From Olsenella porci (GTDB lineage: Bacteria; Actinomycetota; Coriobacteriia; Coriobacteriales; Atopobiaceae), in the NCBI RefSeq assembly GCF_009695875.1, contig NZ_VUNC01000001.1, positions 124,001 through 188,000 of the forward strand: a stretch of 64,000 nucleotides of DNA, given 5' to 3'. Made by a program: the position numbers and the translations under genes. Shown here piece after piece: positions 47,944 to 59,582 of this stretch (its first letter is position 1; each line of letters starts with the position of its first letter). Under the pieces are notes generated by a model. That model was not told the DNA's origin, did no database searches, and saw nothing but the letters and a program-made list of their open reading frames with translations.

Positions 47944-48019
47944 GGGTCGTTAGCTCAGTTGGTAGAGCAGGGGACTTTTAATCCCAAGGTCATGGGTTCG
48001 ACCCCCATACGACCCACCA
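47944..48019 (+). tRNA. tRNA-Lys (anticodon TTT), integration target
   Basis: GGGTCGT pairs with ACGACCC, the anticodon loop is CTTTTAA, the T loop is TTCGACC, and ACCA is encoded. Its 3' part (from 47974) is repeated at 55865, showing that an element integrated here. The tRNA stays complete on the left side, and a hairpin (AGGTCAGGG/CCCTGGCCT, 48030-48056) follows as its terminator. Confidence 0.96.
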
Positions 48020-48066
48020 GCAAACCAGCAGGTCAGGGGCCATGTGTCCCTGGCCTGTTCTTGTTT
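47974..48066 (+). repeat. attachment site, left copy
   Basis: This is a 93-bp direct repeat of 55865-55957 with one difference (C at 48041, T at 55932). It covers the tRNA-Lys 3' half plus 47 bp of downstream flank that includes the tRNA terminator. Confidence 0.95.
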
Positions 48067-48067
48067 C

Positions 48068-48097
48068 TAGTTCACTATTTAGTTCGTCTGTAGTTCA
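48068..48097 (+). repeat. candidate integrase arm sites, left (three copies)
   Basis: TAGTTCA at 48068, TAGTTCG at 48080 and TAGTTCA at 48091 are spaced 12 and 11 bp, about one helical turn, starting 2 bp after the core repeat. The same triplet with the same spacing is at 55706-55735 inside the right end. Confidence 0.75.
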
Positions 48098-48765
48098 AGG
48101 ATTCCAGCCACGCGCCCCGCCCCCTGCTCTACCAGCCGAAAATCGGCCCGAAGCGCGTCGTTCAATATAAAGAATCCATGGAGGAAAAAATACCCCCCTA
48201 CTCAGAATCCGGCCCCCATGCGCCGTTCTGCCCACCTCGCGGGAGGAGGGGGTTTGGGTTGCCGGGGTGTAGCCTCGTCCTCCTGTGGCCGTCTATCCAC
48301 GAAATCGCGGTGTGGATGTGCGAACGTGATACTTAGGCGGCAGTGCAGAGGCGTACCGCCGCGAGCCACCCCGTGAGAGTGCGTGATGGGGTTCCTCCCC
48401 TGTGTCCGTACTTCATGCTCTCCGCGTTAGTCATTCTTCCGCGTGTGTGCCTGTGCCATGCGCGCGGTCTTACTAGACAACCTCATTGTGTAGTGCATAA
48501 AGCTCCGTTTTCGATGGGCCGTTCTCTCAAGCCTTTGCAGGTCTATGAAGTGCGTTTTTGAAATGAAAAATCGTCGGGGCTGCGCACTGGCACAAACGCA
48601 CCGCGCCGCTCGTCCGATTTCCTGCGGGCAGAACCCAAGTGCTGCTCAGCCATATGCTATACAGGTGTAATTAAGGTTAATAGCTTGAGCCTGAAAGCGC
48701 AGCAACGGTTGGTTGGCGTGTCTTTGACCAATGCCTCGGGCTGAGGCAATGGAGAAGGAGGAAAC
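48098..48765. other. gene-poor left part of the element
   Basis: No convincing gene is seen in these 668 bp. Open frames are short and lack ribosome-binding sites. The last 100 bp probably contain the promoter of the cargo gene (TATACA at 48659-48664 and TTGACC at 48726-48731 are present, but not well spaced). It could hold an oriT, packaging site or non-coding RNA; I see no direct sign of any. Confidence 0.4.
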
Positions 48766-49602
48766 ATGGCTGAAAGCGATGATAACAAGACCGAAGAGAC
48801 GGGCGGTAAGGCCGAGGAAACGAAGGCTGAAAAGACTCAAGATTCAACCGACAAAGGGAAAAGGGAAAAGGGCAAGGCTAAGGGCAAGGGGAAAGGCTGG
48901 AAGATTGCCCTAGGGATCTTCCTTGCAATTGTTATTCTTGCTGCTATTGGTGGTAAGGGAGGGTCTGAGGATACGTCTGGGTCTCAGCAAGAGTCGCAAG
49001 ACTCTCAGCAGGAGCAGCAAGCTACTGAGCAGGACCAGCAGGAGACTACGCAAGAAGAGACCGTTACGGTAGACAAGAGTTCACTCGAAGCTTCAATACA
49101 GTCATCCGAAGGTCTCTCTCAAGGTGACTATACGGCTGAGACATGGGAGCCGTTTTCTAAGGCACTTGAAGCTGCAAAGACGGTTGATGCTGACGCATCT
49201 GCCACGCAAGCGGAAGTTGACTCTGCGGCAAGCGAGCTTTCGAGCGCCTCTAGTGCCCTCAAGGAGGCTTTCAAGCCTGAGAACTATGCTCAACTTGACT
49301 ATAAATCCGTTGCACGAACGCCCGATGATTTCAAGGGTAAGAAGGTAGTTCTCTCTGGCAGGGTTGCACAGGTGGTTGAGGGCGATACTGAGACTGACCT
49401 GCGCGTTGCAACAAATGGCTCATACGACGACATGGTGCTAGTCGGGTTCTCCCCGGATATTATGGGCGGAACGCACATCCTTGAGGATGATACGGTGACC
49501 GTATATGGGACATGCCTTGGCACGATGACATACACCTCCACAATGGGCGGTGACATTACTATCCCTGCCGTTGTCGCAGACCACATCGACATTAGCCAGT
49601 AA
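48766..49602 (+). CDS. membrane-anchored cargo protein with FIVAR-like and OB-fold-like regions
   Basis: The protein is 278 residues with a strong GGAGG site. A Lys/Glu-rich N-terminus is followed by one membrane helix (about residues 45-62), so the rest is likely outside the cell. A Gln/Ser/Glu linker (about 66-108) leads to a helical repeat (TVDADASATQAEVDSAASEL) like FIVAR domains. The last 110 residues (FKGKKVVLSGRVAQVVEGDT onward) look like a tRNA_anti-like OB-fold. Codon use is AT-richer than the host. It is the only obvious cargo of the element; its function is unknown. Confidence 0.75.
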   Translation: MAESDDNKTEETGGKAEETKAEKTQDSTDKGKREKGKAKGKGKGWKIALGIFLAIVILAAIGGKGGSEDTSGSQQESQDSQQEQQATEQDQQETTQEETVTVDKSSLEASIQSSEGLSQGDYTAETWEPFSKALEAAKTVDADASATQAEVDSAASELSSASSALKEAFKPENYAQLDYKSVARTPDDFKGKKVVLSGRVAQVVEGDTETDLRVATNGSYDDMVLVGFSPDIMGGTHILEDDTVTVYGTCLGTMTYTSTMGGDITIPAVVADHIDISQ

Positions 49603-49635
49603 GTAGCGGTTAGTTCGATATTTATTTTTGAAAAT

Positions 49636-49671
49636 GTCCCGTGCGGGTTAGTTCAGATTCCCGTGCGGGAC
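49636..49671 (+). terminator. hairpin after the cargo gene
   Basis: GTCCCGT and GCGGGAC flank a 22-nt loop, and CCCGTGCGGG occurs twice within the structure. No long U-tract follows, so termination is plausible but unproven. Between 49672 and 49975 I see no gene. Confidence 0.5.
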
Positions 49672-49975
49672 TTCTCTGTGTCTCGGGGGTCTTACTCTTG
49701 CATTTTGGCAATCGAGTCTTTTGCAAGACTTTGGAACTCGAATATCTTTGACGGGATAAGATTGCTCCTCTGCTCTTGCAACAGAATCTATAAGCCCCTG
49801 GGTTCTATTTTTATCGTTCAATATGCGATTTCGAGTCCTTGCGATTGCACCTCGGCGGGGGTCAGACCTGCCAATGCGCAGGCTTCCCTTGTGGCCCCTC
49901 CACCGGGCGACGTACCCTTCCTTGTGGCTTAATGCTCCCTGCGCGCTATATCGCCTCGCTACGGGTGGCGTGCGA

Positions 49976-50309
49976 ACGGCAATAGCGGCAACAAGGAAAC
50001 CGCAGGTAAATAGGCTATCATTGCCGTATTTCCATGTTGCCCAGCCTTCCAGACTTTCATTGCGAATGCACCCCCCCGCACCGCGCGCGTATATGTGGGG
50101 GGTGCACTTATTTATTACTTACTAATAGAAAAAGGGTAGTACGGCAATAAATGGGGTCCTAACTGGTGAAACGTTATTGCCGTGCATTGCCGTGCCTCTT
50201 TCGCACCCCCACGGGCCTGCGGAAACACAATTGCCGTGACGTTGCCGTGCATTGCCGAAAAAGGCCCGCCACGGTGGACGTACCGTGACGGGCGAATGAC
50301 TATTGCCGC
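49976..50309. other. iteron cluster with AT-rich core: candidate replication origin of the element
   Basis: Ten copies of ATTGCCGT or a one- to two-base variant occur. Minus-strand copies are at 49976, 49985 and 50141. Plus-strand copies are at 50020, 50176, 50186, 50230, 50241, 50251 and 50302. Several are 9-11 bp apart. Between the two groups lie a 10-bp perfect hairpin (TGCACCCCCC/GGGGGGTGCA, 50067-50106) and an AT-rich stretch (50106-50133). The primase/helicase gene ends at 50300. Iterons flanking an AT-rich core beside the primase gene is the layout of satellite (SaPI) origins. Confidence 0.72.
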
Positions 50310-52720
50310 GCTGGCCTTCCCCCTACGTACACAAACGCGCGTCGTGACTGGGTGGCTTTGTCTATGGTTACGGTGACTTTGTGGCATGCCCAGACCCAAT
50401 CAGGAGCTTTGCGGTCAACGATTTCCCTCACTCTCCTCTGGCTCTTTCTGTCACGTGTGGCATCGGAGGAGAACATCCCAAGCGCCCCGCACATTATCTG
50501 GGTCACGGTTACCGCTTTGGTGCCTTTCTCCGCCTCATCGCTCAGGTATTCCAGAATCGCCTCCTGCTCCTCATCAACCGATTGCGCGGAGTCTCGCGCG
50601 GCCTCCCACTGCTCCCGGGCCTCGGGTGGCAGGATGAGCGGCGGGAGTGTGTCGTGCTTGCTCTTGTACTCCCTGAGTTCGTGGTACGTCTGTGCGAATG
50701 CCTGCGCGACGTAGCGGCTCAGCTTCTCCCGCGCTCCGCCGTCCCCGCATCCTAGTGGCAGGTGGTTGGGGTCCACCCCGCATTCGATGGGCATGTAGCG
50801 GCGGTCCTGCCCTATGGAGTCCATCCACCCGGTGCTGTTGCACGTGATTATGGTGCATGCGGTCCTCGGGTGGTCCTCCGCGCGCTTGCCGTACGCCGGC
50901 CTGTAGGTGTCAGTCCGTGCCGTTAGAAAGGCCTTTGCCTCGTCTGGCGATACCGCCCGCAGGGCTGTTGCTTCCTCCAGCTCGCATATCACCTTCCCCC
51001 GCATGTTCTCGCCCACCGCTTTGGGGTCCCTGATTGAGTGCAGGGAGACATAGAATGCATCTTCGTCGAACGCTAGCGCGTGGCAGAACGTCGTTTTTCC
51101 GATGCCCTCAACGTTGCTCTTCAGCACGGGCGTGTTGTCGCACTGCGTGCCTGGGTGGGTGACCCTCATGACAATCTGGCGGAGGAACAGCTTGCACACC
51201 TCGCGGGTATACGGGGTGTCCTCCGCCCCGAGGTACCAATGGAACAAATGTTCTGCATACCCGAGGCCATCCCATTCCAAGGACTCGATGCGCTCCAGGA
51301 ACGGGTTGAACTCGTTCTCGCCCGCAACAATCAGAAGAACCTCGTCAAGGTTGCACTTGGAGAACTTGCCGCCGTTAAGGTCTTGGAGGTACTGGGTCGC
51401 GTGCGCGCTATCGCTCTCGGTCCAACTTGACCCGCCCCTGTGCTTCCATGGGAGCCTTTCGGGGTGGCGAATCGCCACGTCGTTGCGTAGGGTGTCGAAT
51501 CCGACGCACTCCACGAGGGGACTATTCTCCTTGTGAAGTTTCGCTATCGCCTTCGAAATCGCTCCCTTGCCCTGTTCCTCACTTACGGCTCCCTCCGTGG
51601 TGCGGCTATCGGTCGGCGCCTCCTCCCTATGCGCCTCCACGAACGCTAGCCACTCTGCCCAGGATGCCGTGAAGCATCCGTTGGACTCGCCCTCGTCGGG
51701 TCCGCCGCATGCCCATATGAGGGTCTGCTGCTGTCCTTCGCGCATCACGCCGGGGAGGCGCGAGAGCCTTACGGGGTCCTTGACGGACGTATCGACGTGA
51801 AAACCGTTTGCCGTGCATGTCCCCGTCATGAACGCTGCGCGCCCACGGAACTCCCCGGCGTCACGGGCGTCCACTGCGCAAACGAGGTGCAGCGACTTCG
51901 CGCCGCTCCACACTGCCGCGCGGACGGGGAGCCTGAGTTTCGCCGCCATGCGCATCTGCTCCTCGGGCGGAATCGGCTCGCCGCCCTCGTCCTCGTCGGC
52001 CTCGATGAGCGCGTAACTGAACGAGGAGAGGGCCTCGCCCCTTCGTCCGTCCTTGGCGAACCTCTCGGGGTCGTACTCGTTGACCGCAACCCATGCGCCC
52101 GCCGTGGGGTTGGCCTTCCCCATGGCCTCCTCGGGGTGGACGATGAGGTCCCCCGCGCGGTAAAGCTCCCCCCGTCCGTTCGGGCGGGGCTTGCCTCCAT
52201 TCCTTGCCACAGAGTCCGTGACTACGGCAACGTGCGCGTCTGGGCCGTGCAGTGCCCTCATGTACTTTGATAGCTGCTCCCTTGCCGGCACCCTGCGTGC
52301 CTTTTCGAGTGAGGGGAGAGGCACAGCCTCCGCGTCATCGAGGGCGAGGCGTGGGGGCCGCATCGTCCCGCCACCACCGGGAGCCTCGGGCGGCTCGTGG
52401 TGGTCTGCGCACGCCGCCGCGCCGGTGCCCCCGCCCCTCCATCCACGGTCGCGCGCCATCCCGAAAAGAGTGTTCTTCGATATGCCCCCCGACTTCTCGG
52501 GGTCGAACGAGTCCCAGCGCTTTTTGTTCTCCCCCTCGTCGTAGCGCCCGGGGTCGCGCTGGTTCCAGGCGTCCCATTCGGTGTATCCGACGCCTGCGGC
52601 CTTCGCCGCCATTGACGCCCTCACCCATTCGTTCGGATTGAGGGTGCCTGGGTCCATCCAACTGAGCGCGTCCAGCGCCTCGTTGGGGTCTGGTGGGGCC
52701 ACGGCCTTAACCTGCCTCAT
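50300..52720 (-). CDS. primase/VapE-type helicase (replication protein of the element)
   Basis: The protein has 806 residues. Residues about 20-95 look like a primase-associated PriCT-type domain (NPNEWVRASMAAKAAGVGYT). Residues about 150-340 look like an archaeo-eukaryotic primase domain (SYALIEADEDEGG, then SGAKSLHLVCAVDA). Residues about 480-760 form a VapE-type helicase with Walker A SNVEGIGKTTF (near 535-545), acidic ICELEEATAL and CTIITCNSTGWMD. Such proteins replicate phage satellites and plasmids. It ends inside the iteron region and is the last gene of a leftward operon with the excisionase-like gene. Confidence 0.88.
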   Translation of the reverse strand: MRQVKAVAPPDPNEALDALSWMDPGTLNPNEWVRASMAAKAAGVGYTEWDAWNQRDPGRYDEGENKKRWDSFDPEKSGGISKNTLFGMARDRGWRGGGTGAAACADHHEPPEAPGGGGTMRPPRLALDDAEAVPLPSLEKARRVPAREQLSKYMRALHGPDAHVAVVTDSVARNGGKPRPNGRGELYRAGDLIVHPEEAMGKANPTAGAWVAVNEYDPERFAKDGRRGEALSSFSYALIEADEDEGGEPIPPEEQMRMAAKLRLPVRAAVWSGAKSLHLVCAVDARDAGEFRGRAAFMTGTCTANGFHVDTSVKDPVRLSRLPGVMREGQQQTLIWACGGPDEGESNGCFTASWAEWLAFVEAHREEAPTDSRTTEGAVSEEQGKGAISKAIAKLHKENSPLVECVGFDTLRNDVAIRHPERLPWKHRGGSSWTESDSAHATQYLQDLNGGKFSKCNLDEVLLIVAGENEFNPFLERIESLEWDGLGYAEHLFHWYLGAEDTPYTREVCKLFLRQIVMRVTHPGTQCDNTPVLKSNVEGIGKTTFCHALAFDEDAFYVSLHSIRDPKAVGENMRGKVICELEEATALRAVSPDEAKAFLTARTDTYRPAYGKRAEDHPRTACTIITCNSTGWMDSIGQDRRYMPIECGVDPNHLPLGCGDGGAREKLSRYVAQAFAQTYHELREYKSKHDTLPPLILPPEAREQWEAARDSAQSVDEEQEAILEYLSDEAEKGTKAVTVTQIMCGALGMFSSDATRDRKSQRRVREIVDRKAPDWVWACHKVTVTIDKATQSRRAFVYVGGRPARQ

Positions 52721-52723
52721 GCG

Positions 52724-53002
52724 CTACCTCCGTCCGTTACTCTTGGTGTTGCCGTGCCGGCTCGGGTCCTTCATCGCGCAGTGCGGCCTAGTTCCCCCGT
52801 GCGTGTCACCGCGGTAGAACTCGCAGCTCTTATTGCATCCGCGCGACGGGGTGAGAGAGCAGTACCGTATCCTCCTGTCATCGAGGTAAATTCCGCAGCA
52901 GCGGCCCTGTATCCTCACGCCGGTGCTGAAGCTGTCCCCCTCTAGGGCGTTCAACAGCGAACCCGAATCCCGCCAATCGAGCTTGTACTTCATGCCTGCC
53001 AC
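52724..53002 (-). CDS. small Cys-rich hypothetical protein
   Basis: The protein is 92 residues with seven Cys; GRCCGIYLDD, YCSL, GCNKSCEFYRG and PHCAMKD may form a zinc site. It lies three bases upstream of the primase gene and ends where that gene begins, so it is probably co-transcribed. The family is not recognised. The start could be the ATG three codons later. Confidence 0.65.
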   Translation of the reverse strand: MAGMKYKLDWRDSGSLLNALEGDSFSTGVRIQGRCCGIYLDDRRIRYCSLTPSRGCNKSCEFYRGDTHGGTRPHCAMKDPSRHGNTKSNGRR

Positions 53003-53218
53003 CTACTCGCCGATACCGAACTGCTTGAGCAGCGCGGCGGTGTCTATGCACCAGCGGCGGCCGAACTTCACGCCGCGGATGGTGCCGCGCGAGCAGCAGT
53101 CGGAGATGTAGTGGGTCGAGTAGCCGGTGAGCGCGGCCGCGTCCGCCACCCCGCACAACGCGGGTAGTCTGCGGGCGTCCTCGATTGTCAACGTCGGTCC
53201 TGAGTTCTTGCAAGCCAT
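53003..53218 (-). CDS. excisionase-like helix-turn-helix protein
   Basis: The protein is 71 residues, read from the ATG at 53218 with AGGAG upstream. The sequence CGVADAAALTGYSTHYISDCCSRGTIRGVKFGRRW fits the MerR/excisionase (HTH_17) winged-helix pattern. It probably bends att DNA for excision or activates the replication genes it precedes. It is the first gene of the replication operon. Confidence 0.78.
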   Translation of the reverse strand: MACKNSGPTLTIEDARRLPALCGVADAAALTGYSTHYISDCCSRGTIRGVKFGRRWCIDTAALLKQFGIGE

Positions 53219-53337
53219 TTCGGCTCCTTCCTCGCCTCGCGGCGAACGTGTTGGAGCCGTGCGCACGGCCGGGGGGCGCGTCTCTGCGCTTCCCACTGCA
53301 TCCCACGGTATCGCGCGTGTTTCACCAGTTCAAACGG

Positions 53338-53362
53338 CAAAAAACGCGGACCAGCCCCGCGT
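53338..53362 (-). terminator. minus-strand terminator between the XRE-type gene and the excisionase-like gene
   Basis: ACGCGG/CCGCGT arms with a 7-nt loop are followed on the minus strand by TTTTTTG. It would stop transcripts from int and the XRE-type gene before the replication operon, separating the two transcription units. The rest of 53219-53484 holds no gene and probably contains the replication-operon promoter. Confidence 0.75.
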
Positions 53363-53484
53363 GGTGGGCCATCCGTGGTCCCGTTGGGGGCCAGGTCGCA
53401 TGAAACTCGCCCATCCGCGGGGTCACCTCTCGCTATCGTGGGCGCCTGGCGGGGGCTGGAAAAAACTTTGTGGGATTTGGGGAC

Positions 53485-54348
53485 TCAGGCCAGCGCGTCC
53501 ATGGCGTCTCTGGTCTCGGCGTCGATTCGTGCCAGCAGGGCGTCGAACTTATCCTGGTTCGCCGTCTTGGATGCGTATTCCAGCCCCACCCTCACGACGG
53601 CCAGCGGGTCGCGGTAGTCGCCCCTGAGGCCCAGCAGGTCGCGCCTCAGCCATTCCGCCGCATTCGCGCGGAACCACCTAAGCCAGGCGTCATAGCCGTC
53701 CAGCGCGGCCTCGGTCTCGGGGGTAAAGTCCCCGGTTTCGGGGTCGCAGGATAGGGAGGAGGTGGCTTCATCCCACCTGTCGTACAGCGCCTGCACGTCA
53801 TGGCAAGTGCGGACAAAGCACTTGTGGCCCTGTGCGTCAGTAAGGCGCCATGTCACTATCCCCTCTTCAAATGATGAACTCCCGTCCTCGTAGCAAACGA
53901 AATCCTGATACCACGGCGCGGCCTTCTCGGGGTCCTTGGCCTTGCCCCACCACTCCCTGAGCGTCTCGTACCGCCTGAATGGCTTCGCGCCGCTGCCGTC
54001 CGGGCTGTCCGTGAGGTCGAGCAGGTACCAGACGGATACCCCCAGTATGCGAGCCGCGTGCACGAGTTCGTCGTTCTGTATGCACGTGGCGGCTTGCGAG
54101 CTGCCGGGCGCGCCGTCGAGCCACTTGTCCAGCCTCTTCGCCGATACCCCCATCGCCGCGGCAAACCCGTCTCTCGTCAGCCCCCTGGCTCCTATGGCCT
54201 CGCGCATGTTCATGTGCGGCGCAACGATGTGCCTCACGTCCAGGTCGCCCCATGTGCCCTTGGCGCCCCTCGTCCTGCCTGCCACGTCCCCGCGCCTCCC
54301 TCTTCCGGCCGTGGTGGTGTAGGATACGTGATAGCGGTGCTGCCTCAC
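53485..54348 (-). CDS. XRE-type DNA-binding protein, possible element repressor
   Basis: The longest frame gives 287 residues from a GTG at 54348. The ATG at 54213 or 54207 (MNMREAIGARGLTRD) would start directly at the helix-turn-helix (GFAAAMGVSAKRLDKWLDG) and may be the true start. A long C-terminal part contains many Trp and acidic residues (WDEATSSLSCDPETGDF) and is not recognised. Position next to the integrase fits a regulator of lysogeny or satellite induction; that is inference. Confidence 0.65.
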   Translation of the reverse strand: MRQHRYHVSYTTTAGRGRRGDVAGRTRGAKGTWGDLDVRHIVAPHMNMREAIGARGLTRDGFAAAMGVSAKRLDKWLDGAPGSSQAATCIQNDELVHAARILGVSVWYLLDLTDSPDGSGAKPFRRYETLREWWGKAKDPEKAAPWYQDFVCYEDGSSSFEEGIVTWRLTDAQGHKCFVRTCHDVQALYDRWDEATSSLSCDPETGDFTPETEAALDGYDAWLRWFRANAAEWLRRDLLGLRGDYRDPLAVVRVGLEYASKTANQDKFDALLARIDAETRDAMDALA

Positions 54349-54395
54349 CTGCCACGGCCTGAGGCGGCGCCGCTCTATGTTACCGTCGCGTGCTG

Positions 54396-55679
54396 CTAAA
54401 GACCGGTGCTCGTCATGCCGAATTGGCGGACTTCCCCGCGCCTCGGGGCCTCGCCCATGAACTCGGCGAACCTGTCAGCCGCCGCGCGCCGCGCCGACTC
54501 GTCGGAACTCGCGTAGGTATCCAGCGTCATCGCGCTAGAAGAGTGCCCGAGAATCGCGCTAAGACTCTTGATATCCATTCCGGCCTGAACTGCCAGCGTT
54601 GCGTAGGTGTGTCGCAGGGCGTGGAACACCAGGGGGCGCCCGTTCGAATCCCTCACACCTAGCAGTTCGCGCAGGTGCGCCCACTCGCGCGAGACGCCAG
54701 CGGGGGCGATAACCATACCGTCCAGGTTGCCAAGGACGAAAGATTTGCGCATCTGCTCGGGGGATGGGTAGACCCCGGCGTCCGCCGCCCTCCCCATCAC
54801 GTAGCTACGCCTGTCGCCGAAGGCGCTTTCCAGCGGTGGCGTCATTGGGACGGTGCGGGTGCTGTAACTGTTTTTCGTACCCTTGACGTAAGAGCCGCCG
54901 CCTCCGGCGCCCACGGCCTTGTTGACGTTGAGAGTGTGGTGCGAAACGTCAACGTCTGCCCAGGTGAGGGCGCATATCTCACCAATACGCAAACCAGATA
55001 GCAGGGAGACGCGGGCGGCGCACACGACGCGGGTCTGGGGCATCGCCTCAAGGCTTGCCAGGAGGTCGCGCGCCTGGTCGAGTGTTAGCGCGCTCGGCTG
55101 TTCGCGGTGGTACTTCGGTAGCCGCGCGCCATCACACGGGTTTGATGCAAGCTGCCCGGATTCGACGCCGTACCTGAGGCATTGGCTTAGCGTGCGGAAA
55201 TTCTTTGTCACGGTGCGGGGGGAGAACCCGTTCTCGTTGACCATCGCGGCTACCCATGCCTGAACCTGCTTACGTGTCAGCTCGGTAACTGGCACGTCTC
55301 CCAAGGCCTCGCATATCCGCCTCGCGCTTGTCTCGTAGGTCTGGGCTGTTGACTTCTCAATGCTGTGGGAGGATTCGAGCATCGAAATGTAGCGGTCCAG
55401 ATACTCGCGTACGGTCACGCCGTTGAGGTCGCGCCCGTCCTTCGCCTCCGCCTCCTCCCGGGTCGCCTCGGCTATCAGCTCGTCGCGCCAACGGTTCAGC
55501 GCGCCTATCGCGTGGTTCCTGCCACGGTTCGAACTCTTATCGCAGGGGATATCAGAGCCGTCTTGCTCCTTCAGCGTCCTGCACTTGTGGGTTCGCTTTC
55601 TACTATCGTCCGTCCTCCAAATCTGGCCAACCCACTTACCGTTCGACTTCGTGACGGAACCCTGGCTGTAGGTGACCAT
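54396..55679 (-). CDS. int: tyrosine recombinase (integrase)
   Basis: The protein has 427 residues with three parts. An N-terminal arm-binding domain is seen in SQGSVTKSNGKWVGQIWR. A SAM-like core-binding domain covers about residues 80-180. The catalytic domain has Arg in LLSGLRIGEICAL, Lys region VKGTKNS, HALRHTYATLAV, GHSSSAMTL and the nucleophile Tyr in TLDTYASSDE. It integrates and excises the element at tRNA-Lys. It starts about 185 bp from the right attachment repeat with candidate arm sites between. Confidence 0.95.
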   Translation of the reverse strand: MVTYSQGSVTKSNGKWVGQIWRTDDSRKRTHKCRTLKEQDGSDIPCDKSSNRGRNHAIGALNRWRDELIAEATREEAEAKDGRDLNGVTVREYLDRYISMLESSHSIEKSTAQTYETSARRICEALGDVPVTELTRKQVQAWVAAMVNENGFSPRTVTKNFRTLSQCLRYGVESGQLASNPCDGARLPKYHREQPSALTLDQARDLLASLEAMPQTRVVCAARVSLLSGLRIGEICALTWADVDVSHHTLNVNKAVGAGGGGSYVKGTKNSYSTRTVPMTPPLESAFGDRRSYVMGRAADAGVYPSPEQMRKSFVLGNLDGMVIAPAGVSREWAHLRELLGVRDSNGRPLVFHALRHTYATLAVQAGMDIKSLSAILGHSSSAMTLDTYASSDESARRAAADRFAEFMGEAPRRGEVRQFGMTSTGL

Positions 55680-55705
55680 GTGGCATGCTCCCGTTTCGCG
55701 TTGCC

Positions 55706-55735
55706 TAGTTCATGGATTAGTTCACACTTAGTTCA
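55706..55735 (+). repeat. candidate integrase arm sites, right (three copies)
   Basis: TAGTTCA at 55706, 55718 and 55729 is spaced 12 and 11 bp, identical in spacing and orientation to the left-end triplet. It lies between the int start codon and the right attachment repeat, the usual place for integrase arm sites. Confidence 0.75.
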
Positions 55736-55864
55736 TTCAGTGTGATAACAGCATATCAGTCAAAGACGGTAGAAAACAGTCAACAACAAGAATCAGCAGG
55801 TAGAATGTATTGTTATTTGTAATGCCATTCTTTCGGATGCAGTCGCAAACATCCAGCATAAGAA

Positions 55865-55957
55865 ACTTTTAATCCCAAGGTCATGGGTTCGACCCCCATA
55901 CGACCCACCAGCAAACCAGCAGGTCAGGGGCTATGTGTCCCTGGCCTGTTCTTGTTT
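55865..55957 (+). repeat. attachment site, right copy
   Basis: The repeat copies the tRNA-Lys 3' half and its downstream flank. It lacks the 5' half of the tRNA, so it is not a functional gene. Confidence 0.95.
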
Positions 55958-55988: not shown

Positions 55989-56467
55989 TGAATCCACGAT
56001 TCAATCCGTTTTCAATCCAGGCGGGGCCCAACTGAGTTTATGGATGGCCGTGAGACGGTACATTCAATGACCTACGAAGGTTTTGTTTCGGTGGCCCTAT
56101 AACCCTGGCTGCCATCGCTTTCACAGATGCTCCACATTGCCAGATACCGTGGGGTTGCGGACTTAGTGGGGTCGGGCGATTGCTTGGTGACGATGGGCTT
56201 AGTCACTCGGACCCACCTGCCATCACATCGCCGACGACTGCGCAGGAAAAAACGCGGACGTACACGAGGGATAAAACCACAGGTGAGAGATGCGATGCAA
56301 CCATCAAACGGACAACGGGCGAATTGACGGCGGCCACCTCAAGTCGTGATGGGGCATCGCATCAATCATGTGACAAAGGATGTTGGCGTCTTTCACCCAG
56401 AATCACATGCATGAATGTTTCAAAACGAAATCGTGAGGAATTTCTCACACAGATGCATAACGAAGCC
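55989..56467. other. non-coding stretch between the element and the arginine operon
   Basis: No gene is supported in these 479 bp. Short frames lack ribosome-binding sites. The left part may be decayed mobile DNA (see the arm-site remnant). The right part contains the arginine operon promoter. Confidence 0.5.
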
Positions 56468-56476
56468 TGATATATT
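56468..56476 (+). promoter_or_regulatory. argGH promoter, extended -10
   Basis: TGATATATT is an extended -10 element (TG, one base, then TATATT at 56471-56476), about 57 bp before the leader peptide start. No good -35 box is visible, which is usual for extended -10 promoters. Confidence 0.55.
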
Positions 56477-56532
56477 ACCCGACAACACCACGAGGGTGGA
56501 AAACAAAGCGGATGAGCGGAAGGAGGACGAAG

Positions 56533-56622
56533 ATGACCGCAGCAAAGAGGGATGAGCGACGCCGGGGTGGAATCCGTGATCAGCGACGCCAGTGCGTGTC
56601 GTCTTCAGTCCCACGCGGCTAA
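56533..56622 (+). CDS. arginine-rich leader peptide (argGH attenuation)
   Basis: The 29-residue frame has a strong site GGAGG six bases upstream of the ATG and reads MTAAKRDERRRGGIRDQRRQ and then CVSSSVPRG. Eight residues are Arg, including one CGA-CGC-CGG run (56557-56565) and a CGA-CGC pair (56584-56589). An in-frame ATG at 56512 would give 36 residues. It sits between the promoter and an intrinsic terminator ahead of argG. This is the layout of ribosome-mediated attenuators that sense the product amino acid. Confidence 0.8.
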   Translation: MTAAKRDERRRGGIRDQRRQCVSSSVPRG

Positions 56623-56645
56623 ACGCCACCCATAGGTTGGACTGC

Positions 56646-56677
56646 AAGCGCACCTGGCATCGCCGGGGCGCTTTTTT
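56646..56677 (+). terminator. attenuator terminator with competing antiterminator pairing
   Basis: AAGCGC pairs with GCGCTT, and GGC with GCC around an ATC loop, followed by six T. The left arm (CGCACCTGGC, 56649-56658) can instead pair with GCCAGTGCG inside the leader peptide frame (56588-56596). A ribosome paused at the Arg codons would leave that segment free and prevent termination. A ribosome reaching the stop codon at 56620 would cover it and allow termination. Confidence 0.75.
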
Positions 56678-56766
56678 CATACCCAAGCGAACGAAAACAA
56701 CGGGACAAAGTCCCTGCACCCATAGGCATAGAAATCAAAAATTTAATTAATAAGGGAGTGGTTGAG

Positions 56767-58038
56767 ATGGCGGCAAAGGCAAACGGCAAGGAGAAGGTTG
56801 TCCTGGCATACTCGGGCGGTCTGGACACTTCGGTCATGGTCAAGTGGCTGCAGCTCGAGAAGGGTCTGGATGTCGTTGCCATCTGCGGCAACGTTGGCCA
56901 GGAGTCGCAGGACCTTGGCTGGGTCGAGCAGAAGGCATACGACATGGGTGCCATGTACTCCCAGGCGATTGACATGCGTTCCGAGTATGCGGAGAAGATC
57001 CTGACCAAGGCGATTGCAGCCAACGGCATGTACGAGGACACCTACCCGCTACTCTCGGCACTCTCGCGTCCACTTATCGTGAAGCACCTCGTTGACATCG
57101 CCCACAAGACCGGAGCCTCCTACATTGCTCATGGCTGCACGGGAAAGGGCAACGACCAGGTGCGCTTTGAGACCTGCATCCACGCCCTGGACCCCAGCAT
57201 CAAGATTCTTGCCCCCGTGCGTGAGTGGGACCTCCACACTCGCGAGGAGGAGATGGAGTGGGCGGCCGCGCATGACGTGCCGGTGCCTACGACGGCGGCG
57301 AAGCCCTATTCCATCGACGACAACCTCTGGGGCCGCGCGATCGAGTGCGGCGTGCTGGAGGATCCCTGGAACGAGCCGCCCGAGGACATCTGGACCATGA
57401 CTGCAAGCCCGGAGGAGGCCCCAGACGAGCCCGAGGAAATCGTCGTTGGGTTTGAGGCAGGAAAGCCCGTCTCGCTCAATGGCAAGCCCATGGCGCTGCT
57501 GCCCCTTATCGTGCAGATGAACAAGGTCTGCGGCAAGCATGGCATCGGTCGCATCGACATGATCGAGGACCGGGTGGTGGGCATCAAGAGTCACGAGTGC
57601 TACGAGTGCCCCGCGTCCCTCACGCTCATCAAGATGCATCACTCGCTCGAGACGATGTGCCTGGACGGAGACACGCTCAAGTACAAGCACATGGTTGACC
57701 AGCAGTGGTCGACTACCGTGTACGATGGCCTTTGGTTCTCGCAGCTCAAGCAGGCGCTGGACGCTTTCGTCCAGAACACGCAGAAGTTTGTGACCGGCGA
57801 GGTGAAGGCAAAGCTCTATAAGGGCAGCGCCACGGTCACGGGCGTTAAGAGTGCCTACTCGCTCTACGAATACAGCCTCGCGACCTACGGCGAGGGCGAC
57901 ACCTTCGACCGCACCGCCTCGAAGGGATTCATCGACATCCACAGCCTGCCGGTGAAGACGTGGTCTGGCAAGCAGGGACCCTCCGCCAAGGGCGTGAGCG
58001 AGAAGAGCGATACCCAGGCCCAGCGCCTCTCGGCCTAA
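56767..58038 (+). CDS. argG: argininosuccinate synthase
   Basis: The protein is 423 residues from the ATG at 56767 (AAGGGAG upstream); the GTG at 56758 is too close to the ribosome-binding site. The N-type P-loop AYSGGLDTSVMVKWL and the later YIAHGCTGKGNDQVRFE are characteristic. It joins citrulline and aspartate using ATP, the step before argH. It is preceded by an arginine-rich leader and terminator, and followed by argH 152 bp later. No other arg gene is in the window. Confidence 0.97.
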   Translation: MAAKANGKEKVVLAYSGGLDTSVMVKWLQLEKGLDVVAICGNVGQESQDLGWVEQKAYDMGAMYSQAIDMRSEYAEKILTKAIAANGMYEDTYPLLSALSRPLIVKHLVDIAHKTGASYIAHGCTGKGNDQVRFETCIHALDPSIKILAPVREWDLHTREEEMEWAAAHDVPVPTTAAKPYSIDDNLWGRAIECGVLEDPWNEPPEDIWTMTASPEEAPDEPEEIVVGFEAGKPVSLNGKPMALLPLIVQMNKVCGKHGIGRIDMIEDRVVGIKSHECYECPASLTLIKMHHSLETMCLDGDTLKYKHMVDQQWSTTVYDGLWFSQLKQALDAFVQNTQKFVTGEVKAKLYKGSATVTGVKSAYSLYEYSLATYGEGDTFDRTASKGFIDIHSLPVKTWSGKQGPSAKGVSEKSDTQAQRLSA

Positions 58039-58190: not shown

Positions 58191-59582
58191 ATGGCTCTTT
58201 GGTCCGGAAGGTTCGAGGGCGGCGTCAGCGAGTTCACTCAAGAGTTTGGGGCATCGCTTCCGCAGGACAAGGCTATGTACGCGCAGGACATCCGGGGATC
58301 CATCGCGCATGCCAAGATGCTGGCGCGGCAGGGCGTCATCTCCCAGGAGGATGCGGAGAAGATCGTTGCTGGCCTCGAGGCAATAAGAAAATCGATGGAT
58401 GCCGGCGAGTTTGAGTGGAACGTCGACGACGAGGACATCCACATGGCGGTGGAGTCCAAGCTCACGAGTGATGTGGGCGAGGCGGGCGCACGACTTCACA
58501 CCGGTCGATCGCGCAACGATCAGGTTGCCCTCGACCTCAGGCTGTACGCAAAGGATCAGATAACGAGCCTGATGGAGGAGAACTGCCGTCTGCGTGCATC
58601 GCTTGTTTCCGCCGCCGAGAAGAACCTGGGCGTCGTGATGCCCGGATACACCCACCTGCAGCACGCGCAGCCTGTGCTTTTCTCCCACCACCTCCTGGCT
58701 TACTTTTGGATGTTGACGCGCGACTTCCACCGGCTGGCCGAGGCCCGCTCCGCCGCGGATGCGAACCCCCTGGGCGCCGCAGCGCTGGCGGGGACCACGT
58801 ACGACCTGGACCGCTTCTACACAACGGAGCTCCTGGGCATGGACCATCCCATTCCCAACTCGATGGATGCGGTCTCGGACCGCGATTACCTGCTGGACCT
58901 CCTCTATGCATGCAGCGTGAGCATGATGCACCTCTCGCGTCTGTGCGAGGAGATCATCCTCTGGTCGTCGACAGAGTTCTCGTTCATCACGCTCTCCGAC
59001 TCGTACTCCACGGGGTCGTCGATCATGCCGCAGAAGAAGAACCCCGACTTTGCTGAGCTCACCCGTGGCAAGATGGGGCGGGTGGTTGGTGACCTCGTGT
59101 CTCTGCTCGTCACCATGAAGGGATTGCCCCTTGCCTACAACAAGGACCTCCAGGAGTGCAAGGAGGGGCCAATGGATGCCGCGCGCACGCTCGGCGATTG
59201 CATGACCTGTATGCGCGGGATGGTGGACACCTGGGAGGTGCACCCCCAGACCATGCTCGAGCAGGCCAGCAAGGGCTTCACCGCGGCAACGGACGTGGCG
59301 GACTACCTCGCGAAGAGGGGAATGCCCTTTCGCCAGGCGCATGAGGTCGTGGGCAGGCTCGTGCTGTACTGCGAGCAGCATGGGAAGGGGTTGGAGGACC
59401 TGACCCCCGAGGAGTTTAGGCAGGCGTCGCCGCTGTTTGGCAACGACATCGCGAAGGACCTGGACCCCGCCGGCATCGCCCGGGCACGCAACACCTACGG
59501 CGGGACGGGCGACGAGGCAGTGAGGGTCCAGATGGGCGAGGCAAAGGCGGCGCTCGAGAGGGACGAGTCCACCCTTGGGTAG
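58191..59582 (+). CDS. argH: argininosuccinate lyase
   Basis: The protein has 463 residues from the ATG at 58191 (GAGGGAG upstream). The fumarase-superfamily signature GSSIMPQKKNPD is present, with TGRSRNDQVALDLRL and MPGYTHLQHAQP. It splits argininosuccinate to arginine and fumarate. A longer in-frame start overlapping argG is rejected. Co-transcription with argG is likely. Confidence 0.97.
   Translation: MALWSGRFEGGVSEFTQEFGASLPQDKAMYAQDIRGSIAHAKMLARQGVISQEDAEKIVAGLEAIRKSMDAGEFEWNVDDEDIHMAVESKLTSDVGEAGARLHTGRSRNDQVALDLRLYAKDQITSLMEENCRLRASLVSAAEKNLGVVMPGYTHLQHAQPVLFSHHLLAYFWMLTRDFHRLAEARSAADANPLGAAALAGTTYDLDRFYTTELLGMDHPIPNSMDAVSDRDYLLDLLYACSVSMMHLSRLCEEIILWSSTEFSFITLSDSYSTGSSIMPQKKNPDFAELTRGKMGRVVGDLVSLLVTMKGLPLAYNKDLQECKEGPMDAARTLGDCMTCMRGMVDTWEVHPQTMLEQASKGFTAATDVADYLAKRGMPFRQAHEVVGRLVLYCEQHGKGLEDLTPEEFRQASPLFGNDIAKDLDPAGIARARNTYGGTGDEAVRVQMGEAKAALERDESTLG

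Follow-up and report, generated by a model that had tools for sequence, protein, structure and literature searches.

Known leader-peptide attenuators and arginine-sensing leaders

The classical attenuators of amino acid biosynthesis (trp, his, leu, ilv, thr and pheA) consist of a short open reading frame (ORF) rich in codons for the product of the pathway, three mutually exclusive RNA segments, and an intrinsic terminator located before the first gene. The leader described here, upstream of argGH in Olsenella porci, shares this construction; it differs in the amino acid, which is arginine, in the operon, and in the use of the rare CGA as proposed sensor codon. To our knowledge, arginine is largely absent from the amino acids whose synthesis is under peptide-coupled attenuation, and ArgR is the usual answer.

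An attenuator survey of Actinobacteria, the same phylum, predicts leaders of the same logic for trp, ilvB, leuS, trpS and cys, among others; no arg-operon attenuator is among the predictions of its abstract, and in its text arginine occurs twice and the names Collinsella, Olsenella and Coriobacter do not occur (PMC1262725). The orf34 leader of Salmonella speF resembles the argG leader in the consecutive arginine codons of a short upstream ORF and in what is proposed for argG, i.e. ribosome pausing and a rise of expression at low arginine, but it controls an ornithine decarboxylase by way of Rho, RNase G and a masked ribosome-binding site, does not act by an intrinsic terminator/antiterminator and encodes another peptide (PMC6386406). 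The HIRRT core of orf34 (DUF2618) is absent from the O. porci peptide, which has no Pfam match and is followed by argG. Rare arginine codons sense arginine limitation, as is proposed for argG, in the rbfL leader of Staphylococcus aureus; in contrast to the argG leader, rbfL governs translation of a biofilm regulator by blocking the ribosome site, and with the opposite sign (PMC13009471). For carA of Pseudomonas aeruginosa, a proteobacterial gene of the arginine/pyrimidine pathway, a leader peptide and suspected attenuation are cited in PMC4997734, where the attenuation is ascribed to pyrimidines and arginine acts transcriptionally.

The open-access literature searched contained no such attenuator at an operon for arginine biosynthesis. 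The mechanism itself is a textbook one and its kind is known; the arginine specificity and the place at argGH are probably new, a novelty that is probable and not proven because the search covered open-access papers.

Organization of the argGH leader region

The window, i.e. the whole stretch of DNA analysed, comprises 64,000 nucleotides of the O. porci genome. The first-pass annotation of this window had described upstream of argG (i) a frame of 29 codons with a strong ribosome-binding site and eight arginine codons, (ii) their clustering as CGA-CGC-CGG and CGA-CGC, (iii) an intrinsic terminator, and (iv) a segment inside the frame complementary to the left arm of that terminator. A base-by-base check reproduced all four elements, each 5' of argG and with exact coordinates (Table 1). 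The arginine codons read, in order, AGG, CGA, CGC, CGG, CGT, CGA, CGC and CGC. The complementary segment GCCAGTGCG (56588-56596) and the terminator arm CGCACCTGGC (56649-56658) form nine pairs around one bulged C. The T-run ends 89 bases before the ATG of argG. At the leader, a scan with the two-hexamer promoter consensus called no promoter.

Table 1. Features of the argGH leader region in the O. porci window
Feature	Coordinates	Strand	Basis or remark
TGTTTC motif 5' of the promoter, shared by leader-bearing genomes	56416-56421	+	motif count
Extended -10 promoter element TGATATATT	56468-56476	+	sequence reading only
Shine-Dalgarno (SD) AAGGAGG of the leader ORF	56520-56526	+	sequence; SD and ATG in frame in homologues
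Candidate protector strand (SD/start region), pairs with strand 2 when no ribosome is present	56526-56541	+	folding only
Arginine leader peptide ORF MTAAKRDERRRGGIRDQRRQCVSSSVPRG*	56533-56622	+	29 codons, 8 Arg
First Arg cluster CGA-CGC-CGG, proposed sensing codons	56557-56565	+	folding with ribosome; CGA enrichment in homologues
Second Arg pair CGA-CGC, just before and overlapping strand 2	56584-56589	+	predicted antiterminator probability of 0 for an A site at this pair or beyond it
Strand 2, antiterminator 5' half (GCCAGTGCGT)	56588-56597	+	pairs with 56649-56658; covariation
Stem CAGTCC (56606-56611) : GGACTG (56639-56644), between strands 2 and 3	56606-56644	+	
Intrinsic terminator (strands 3:4), six T	56646-56677	+	terminator call; covariation in relatives
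argG, argininosuccinate synthase	56767-58038	+	PF00764/PF20979; ATG start
argH, argininosuccinate lyase	58191-59582	+	PF00206/PF14698

Folded alone, the window leader (201 nt) is of unremarkable stability (z -1.6; 14 of 200 shuffles fold at least as well). Rfam covariance models gave no match at the window locus up to E=5, neither a T-box nor a known riboswitch, and in four relatives no leader-type Rfam family reached its gathering score. Since the single-sequence fold was unremarkable and Rfam gave no match, comparison with relatives had to decide.

Between tRNA-Lys and the argG promoter lies a putative integrative element of about 7.9 kb (47975-55910), bounded by an exact direct repeat of 45 bp (47975-48019 and 55866-55910). 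The near copy of the repeat is the 3' end of an intact tRNA-Lys gene (47944-48019), and a tyrosine integrase gene (54396-55679, minus strand) adjoins the far copy.

Distribution of the leader among relatives

The genus is represented by one genome, that of the window itself, and the family by 140 genomes, from which about 120 argG upstream regions (118 loci) were examined. The leader element, counted by the motif CGACGNCAG-N3-CGACG with at most one mismatch (in the window by a diverged form of this motif), is present in 69 of these regions, with the consensus CTCCGACGCCAGGACCGACGTACCACGCTGCGACGCCAGCGCGTGTTGTCTTAGGTCC ... GGAC ... GCACCCGGCATCGCCGGGTTTTTTC. Ten genomes of one genus in a second family of the order carry it as well, also before argG. 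Across family and order, strong matches occur once per genome, at argG, with no strong second match at any other operon; of the weaker matches, the two that were read (L162 and L164) lack argG and look like coding sequence. In a sample of 396 genomes drawn evenly from the phylum four matches were obtained, all in these two families. A covariance model constructed from relatives only, with no window copy (A3), matches positions 56554-56678 with E=6.2e-9, its best match in the 64 kb. The leader has been lost in genera g30 and g31.

Comparison shows the frame, the codons, the terminator and the antiterminator pairing to be conserved, in a position found only at argG. The alternative of an accidental ORF beside an ordinary intergenic terminator would agree with the unremarkable stability of the window leader folded alone; it is refuted by the comparison, since over 60 genomes, belonging to two families, keep the frame, the codons, the terminator and the location, which leaves it a negligible probability. 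The element is common to more than 60 related gut bacteria, and it is of interest for its amino acid, its operon, its codon choice and its relation to argR.

The leader peptide and its arginine codons

The homologous leader peptides share the in-frame consensus (S)LRRQxRRxTLRRQRVLx. The first-pass annotation had proposed that the Arg-rich frame and its start be sought in related genomes, and they were recovered there: an SD and an ATG open the RRQxRR frame in 64 of the 69 homologues, the other two frames in none of 69. The N-terminal parts vary from 8 to 22 codons, which indicates that selection keeps the frame and not the length. The window peptide is among the most diverged copies, with the arginine clusters kept and the RRQxRR spacing lost.

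The rare codon CGA makes up 204 of the 392 leader arginine codons in the homologues (52%), against 7 of 581 (1.2%) in the sampled argG parts of the same genomes, an approximately 40-fold enrichment; in five genes of the window it accounts for 3 of 83. This enrichment marks the codons themselves as the putative sensor, since a sensor based on codons needs a rare synonymous codon and a sensor based on the peptide only would not. It is not independent of RNA structure, because some invariant positions take part in base pairing as well. According to PMC3711424, the tRNA that carries inosine decodes CGA as well as CGC and CGU. Arginine pairs containing CGA are, in the his leader of Salmonella, among those that slow ribosomes and cause de-attenuation (PMC4046918). 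The enrichment also offers a natural test of whether attenuators choose, among synonymous codons, the one that reacts most strongly to starvation.

The conserved peptide itself has to be considered as a sensor. TnaC (Trp) and the fungal arginine attenuator peptide (Arg) are ligand-responsive stalling peptides, and the RRQxRR peptide could likewise stall the ribosome on free arginine or another ligand, with no part for slow decoding; its strong conservation in two families, beyond what a run of codons would need, speaks for this. However, what is conserved is the nucleotide sequence, rare CGA codon included, which an effect of the peptide would not need, and pairing accounts for part of the conserved bases. 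The diverged spacing in the window and the sign, which would be wrong because a stall on arginine excess would free strand 2, also weigh against it, so that this explanation is very unlikely. A combination, in which slow CGA decoding and the polybasic nascent chain (the fixed RRQxRR) act jointly as the sensor, is unlikely as well; if true, the leader would sense arginyl-tRNA(ICG) and, inside the exit tunnel, the nascent chain, and would be a hybrid of a classical attenuator and an arrest peptide. The preferred reading, which is very probable, is that argGH is controlled by ribosome-mediated transcription attenuation in response to charged tRNA-Arg.

Terminator, antiterminator and other pairings

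The terminator is paired in 96% of the cells in the alignment of relatives, and its covariation score was reached by none of 500 shuffles. At least five T within eight positions follow 45 of the 69 scored hairpins, that of the window included, and some relatives have no good T-run (e.g. L016, L026 and L027).

In the antiterminator helix, formed by strands 2 and 3 (2:3), 79% of the cells are paired, compared with 33-50% when the strands are slid. Tests on small samples gave null results: covariation against column shuffles was not significant in an alignment of 19 sequences, and an earlier test of cognate duplexes, on representatives of eight genera, gave p=0.35. When the register is anchored on the codons and the second family is included (35 distinct pairs), the two strands of a homologue pair better with each other than with strands exchanged among homologues (permutation p=6e-4), and this holds for exchanges confined to the same genus (p=2e-4); these p-values are only indicative, as related sequences are not independent. 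Among the compensatory changes are GC to TA at position six and TA versus CG at positions seven and eight, and in L160/L161 the near-invariant GTG:CAC is replaced by ATG:CAT. The antiterminator pairing is weak in some genera. The long-range 2:3 helix is missing from the RNAalifold prediction, as is expected for a competing structure. The compensatory changes that the first-pass annotation had proposed to look for were in this way found for both helices, in the terminator beyond every shuffle and in the antiterminator across two families.

Two further pairings have been identified. The stem between strands 2 and 3 occurs in relatives as GGTCC:GGACC, paired in 83% of cells (19 sequences) against 16-58% when slid, with no significant covariation in these sequences. 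The relatives also have a 1:2 hairpin, CACGCTG:CAGCGCGTG, which shows no covariation and has no counterpart of this form in the window. The candidate protector strand of the relatives is CACGCTG inside the ORF, and the SD/start form of the window is not conserved.

The homologues with a hairpin and no strong T-run could point to a different mode of action, in which transit of the leader by the ribosome alters mRNA stability or the access of Rho and the hairpin is no terminator in vivo. The speF orf34 leader, with two consecutive arginine codons, works in this manner (PMC6386406). The T-runs behind most of the scored hairpins, the distance of about 90 nt between the hairpin and the argG start, which leaves the argG ribosome site unhidden, and the covarying alternation of 2:3 and 3:4 all argue against such control, and it is regarded as quite improbable.

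Ribosome position and the proposed switch

The effect of ribosome position was modelled by folding in which the RNA behind the ribosome was ignored. For the window, with the pairing of strand 3 taken before strand 4 is made, the predicted antiterminator probability is 0.83-0.86 with the A site at codons 7-13, reaching 0.86 for a ribosome at the first arginine cluster, and 0 from codon 18 on as well as with no ribosome. In 26 homologues with the ribosome at the first arginine codons (L004, L006 and L024 left out), the predicted terminator probability is 0.54, compared with 0.88 with shuffled spacers (Wilcoxon p=2e-4). In the equilibrium fold of the window the full terminator of 12 bp wins at every ribosome position, so that the switch must be kinetic. 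A further prediction of the folding is that the SD region, if left free behind a stalled ribosome, can pair with strand 2 and so prevent antitermination. In this scheme only the first cluster can supply the sensing codons, because a ribosome at the second pair would cover strand 2 and transcription would terminate. The terminator/antiterminator choice put forward in the first-pass annotation is supported by the covariation of both pairings and agrees with the dependence on ribosome position predicted when the RNA behind the ribosome is ignored. Weighing against an attenuator are these two folding limits, the null column-shuffle result and the weak antiterminator of some genera, the relatives with a poor T-run, a shorter peptide or a lost leader, and the divergence of the window peptide.

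We infer ribosome stalling, termination and a response to arginine, in the following sequential order. RNA polymerase would make a leader of about 200 nt, and a ribosome would begin to translate the ORF of 29 codons. A shortage of Arg-tRNA would hold this ribosome at the first arginine cluster and leave strand 2 (GCCAGTGCG...) free to pair with the left terminator arm ahead of synthesis of the right one, allowing transcription to continue into argGH. With plenty of arginine, the ribosome would cross strand 2 and reach the stop codon, the terminator would fold and transcription would end. With no ribosome on the leader, the upstream RNA would hold strand 2 and the terminator would fold as well.

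Relationship between the leader and ArgR

The first-pass annotation had offered the attenuator as an alternative to ArgR control. The attenuator is supported by the comparison; a plain alternative is not, as an intact argR gene (PF02863/PF01316) is located in the window genome away from argG, and argR is present in 116 of the 140 family genomes. The idea of a leader that replaces a lost ArgR was rejected, ArgR being present in most leader genomes. Since argR is still encoded, ArgR may act too: in a dual control, ArgR would repress initiation at the argG promoter, and the leader would be a secondary layer of fine-tuning, or a relic where it has decayed. The presence of argR is consistent with this, as are sites similar to an ARG box, TGCAT-N4-ATGCA with at most two mismatches, a form which we take to hold for these bacteria: they occur upstream in 19 of 64 leader-bearers (5.4 expected) and in L010 perfectly. 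On the other hand, argR adjoins argG only in lineages without the leader, and the best such site of the window has a broken second half and is no clear palindromic ARG box. Moreover, about 15 genomes of genus g33 (e.g. G083, G086, G096, G111, G112 and G113) have no match to the ArgR C-terminal domain, yet most of them keep the leader. Dual control is given a chance a little short of even.

Another upstream motif, TGTT[TA]C, is located before the argG promoter in 63 of 64 leader-bearing regions (3.2 expected) and in none of 21 regions in which argR adjoins argG; it is possibly a regulator binding site.

The basal family members and several of the Eggerthellaceae have argR immediately 5' of argG and lack the leader. 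It looks as if a protein regulator had been swapped for an RNA regulator at the same operon. In the ArgG tree the window sequence is placed next to Parafannyhessea, which bears out the Coriobacteriia affiliation assumed in the first-pass annotation, and the leader-bearing proteins of both families form one supported clade together with two argR-adjacent proteins and some losses. The leader label requires 5 changes on this tree against 23.7 when shuffled, with L157 scored as having none although its leader is present 430 nt from argG. This pattern fits one origin with losses or a transfer between the families. A search of the window genome gave no ArgJ, and the chief role of argGH may therefore be the conversion of citrulline to arginine; among the organisms are commensals of gut and rumen, for which arginine/citrulline metabolism may be of importance.

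Variant leaders

At loci of genus g33 (L038, L047, L065 and others) the peptide is cut short by a TAG codon and ends in ..RRQNRRITP*, while the downstream DNA is still conserved. In the same loci the terminator is changed to GCGCCCCGCGACGTCGGGGC, whose loop side can pair with the leader CCGACG. The truncated leader may be a modified form of the switch or one in decay.

A different Arg-rich leader, with a TTG start and a conserved end (ADQARRR*/ADQLRRR*), is located about 340-240 bases before argG at L127, L129 and L130 (Parvibacter and a relative), and is possibly an independent arginine leader in another lineage. On a short contig, genome G056 (L094 and G056:C2) has several copies or fragments of argG, one of them reversed beside two overlapping pieces.
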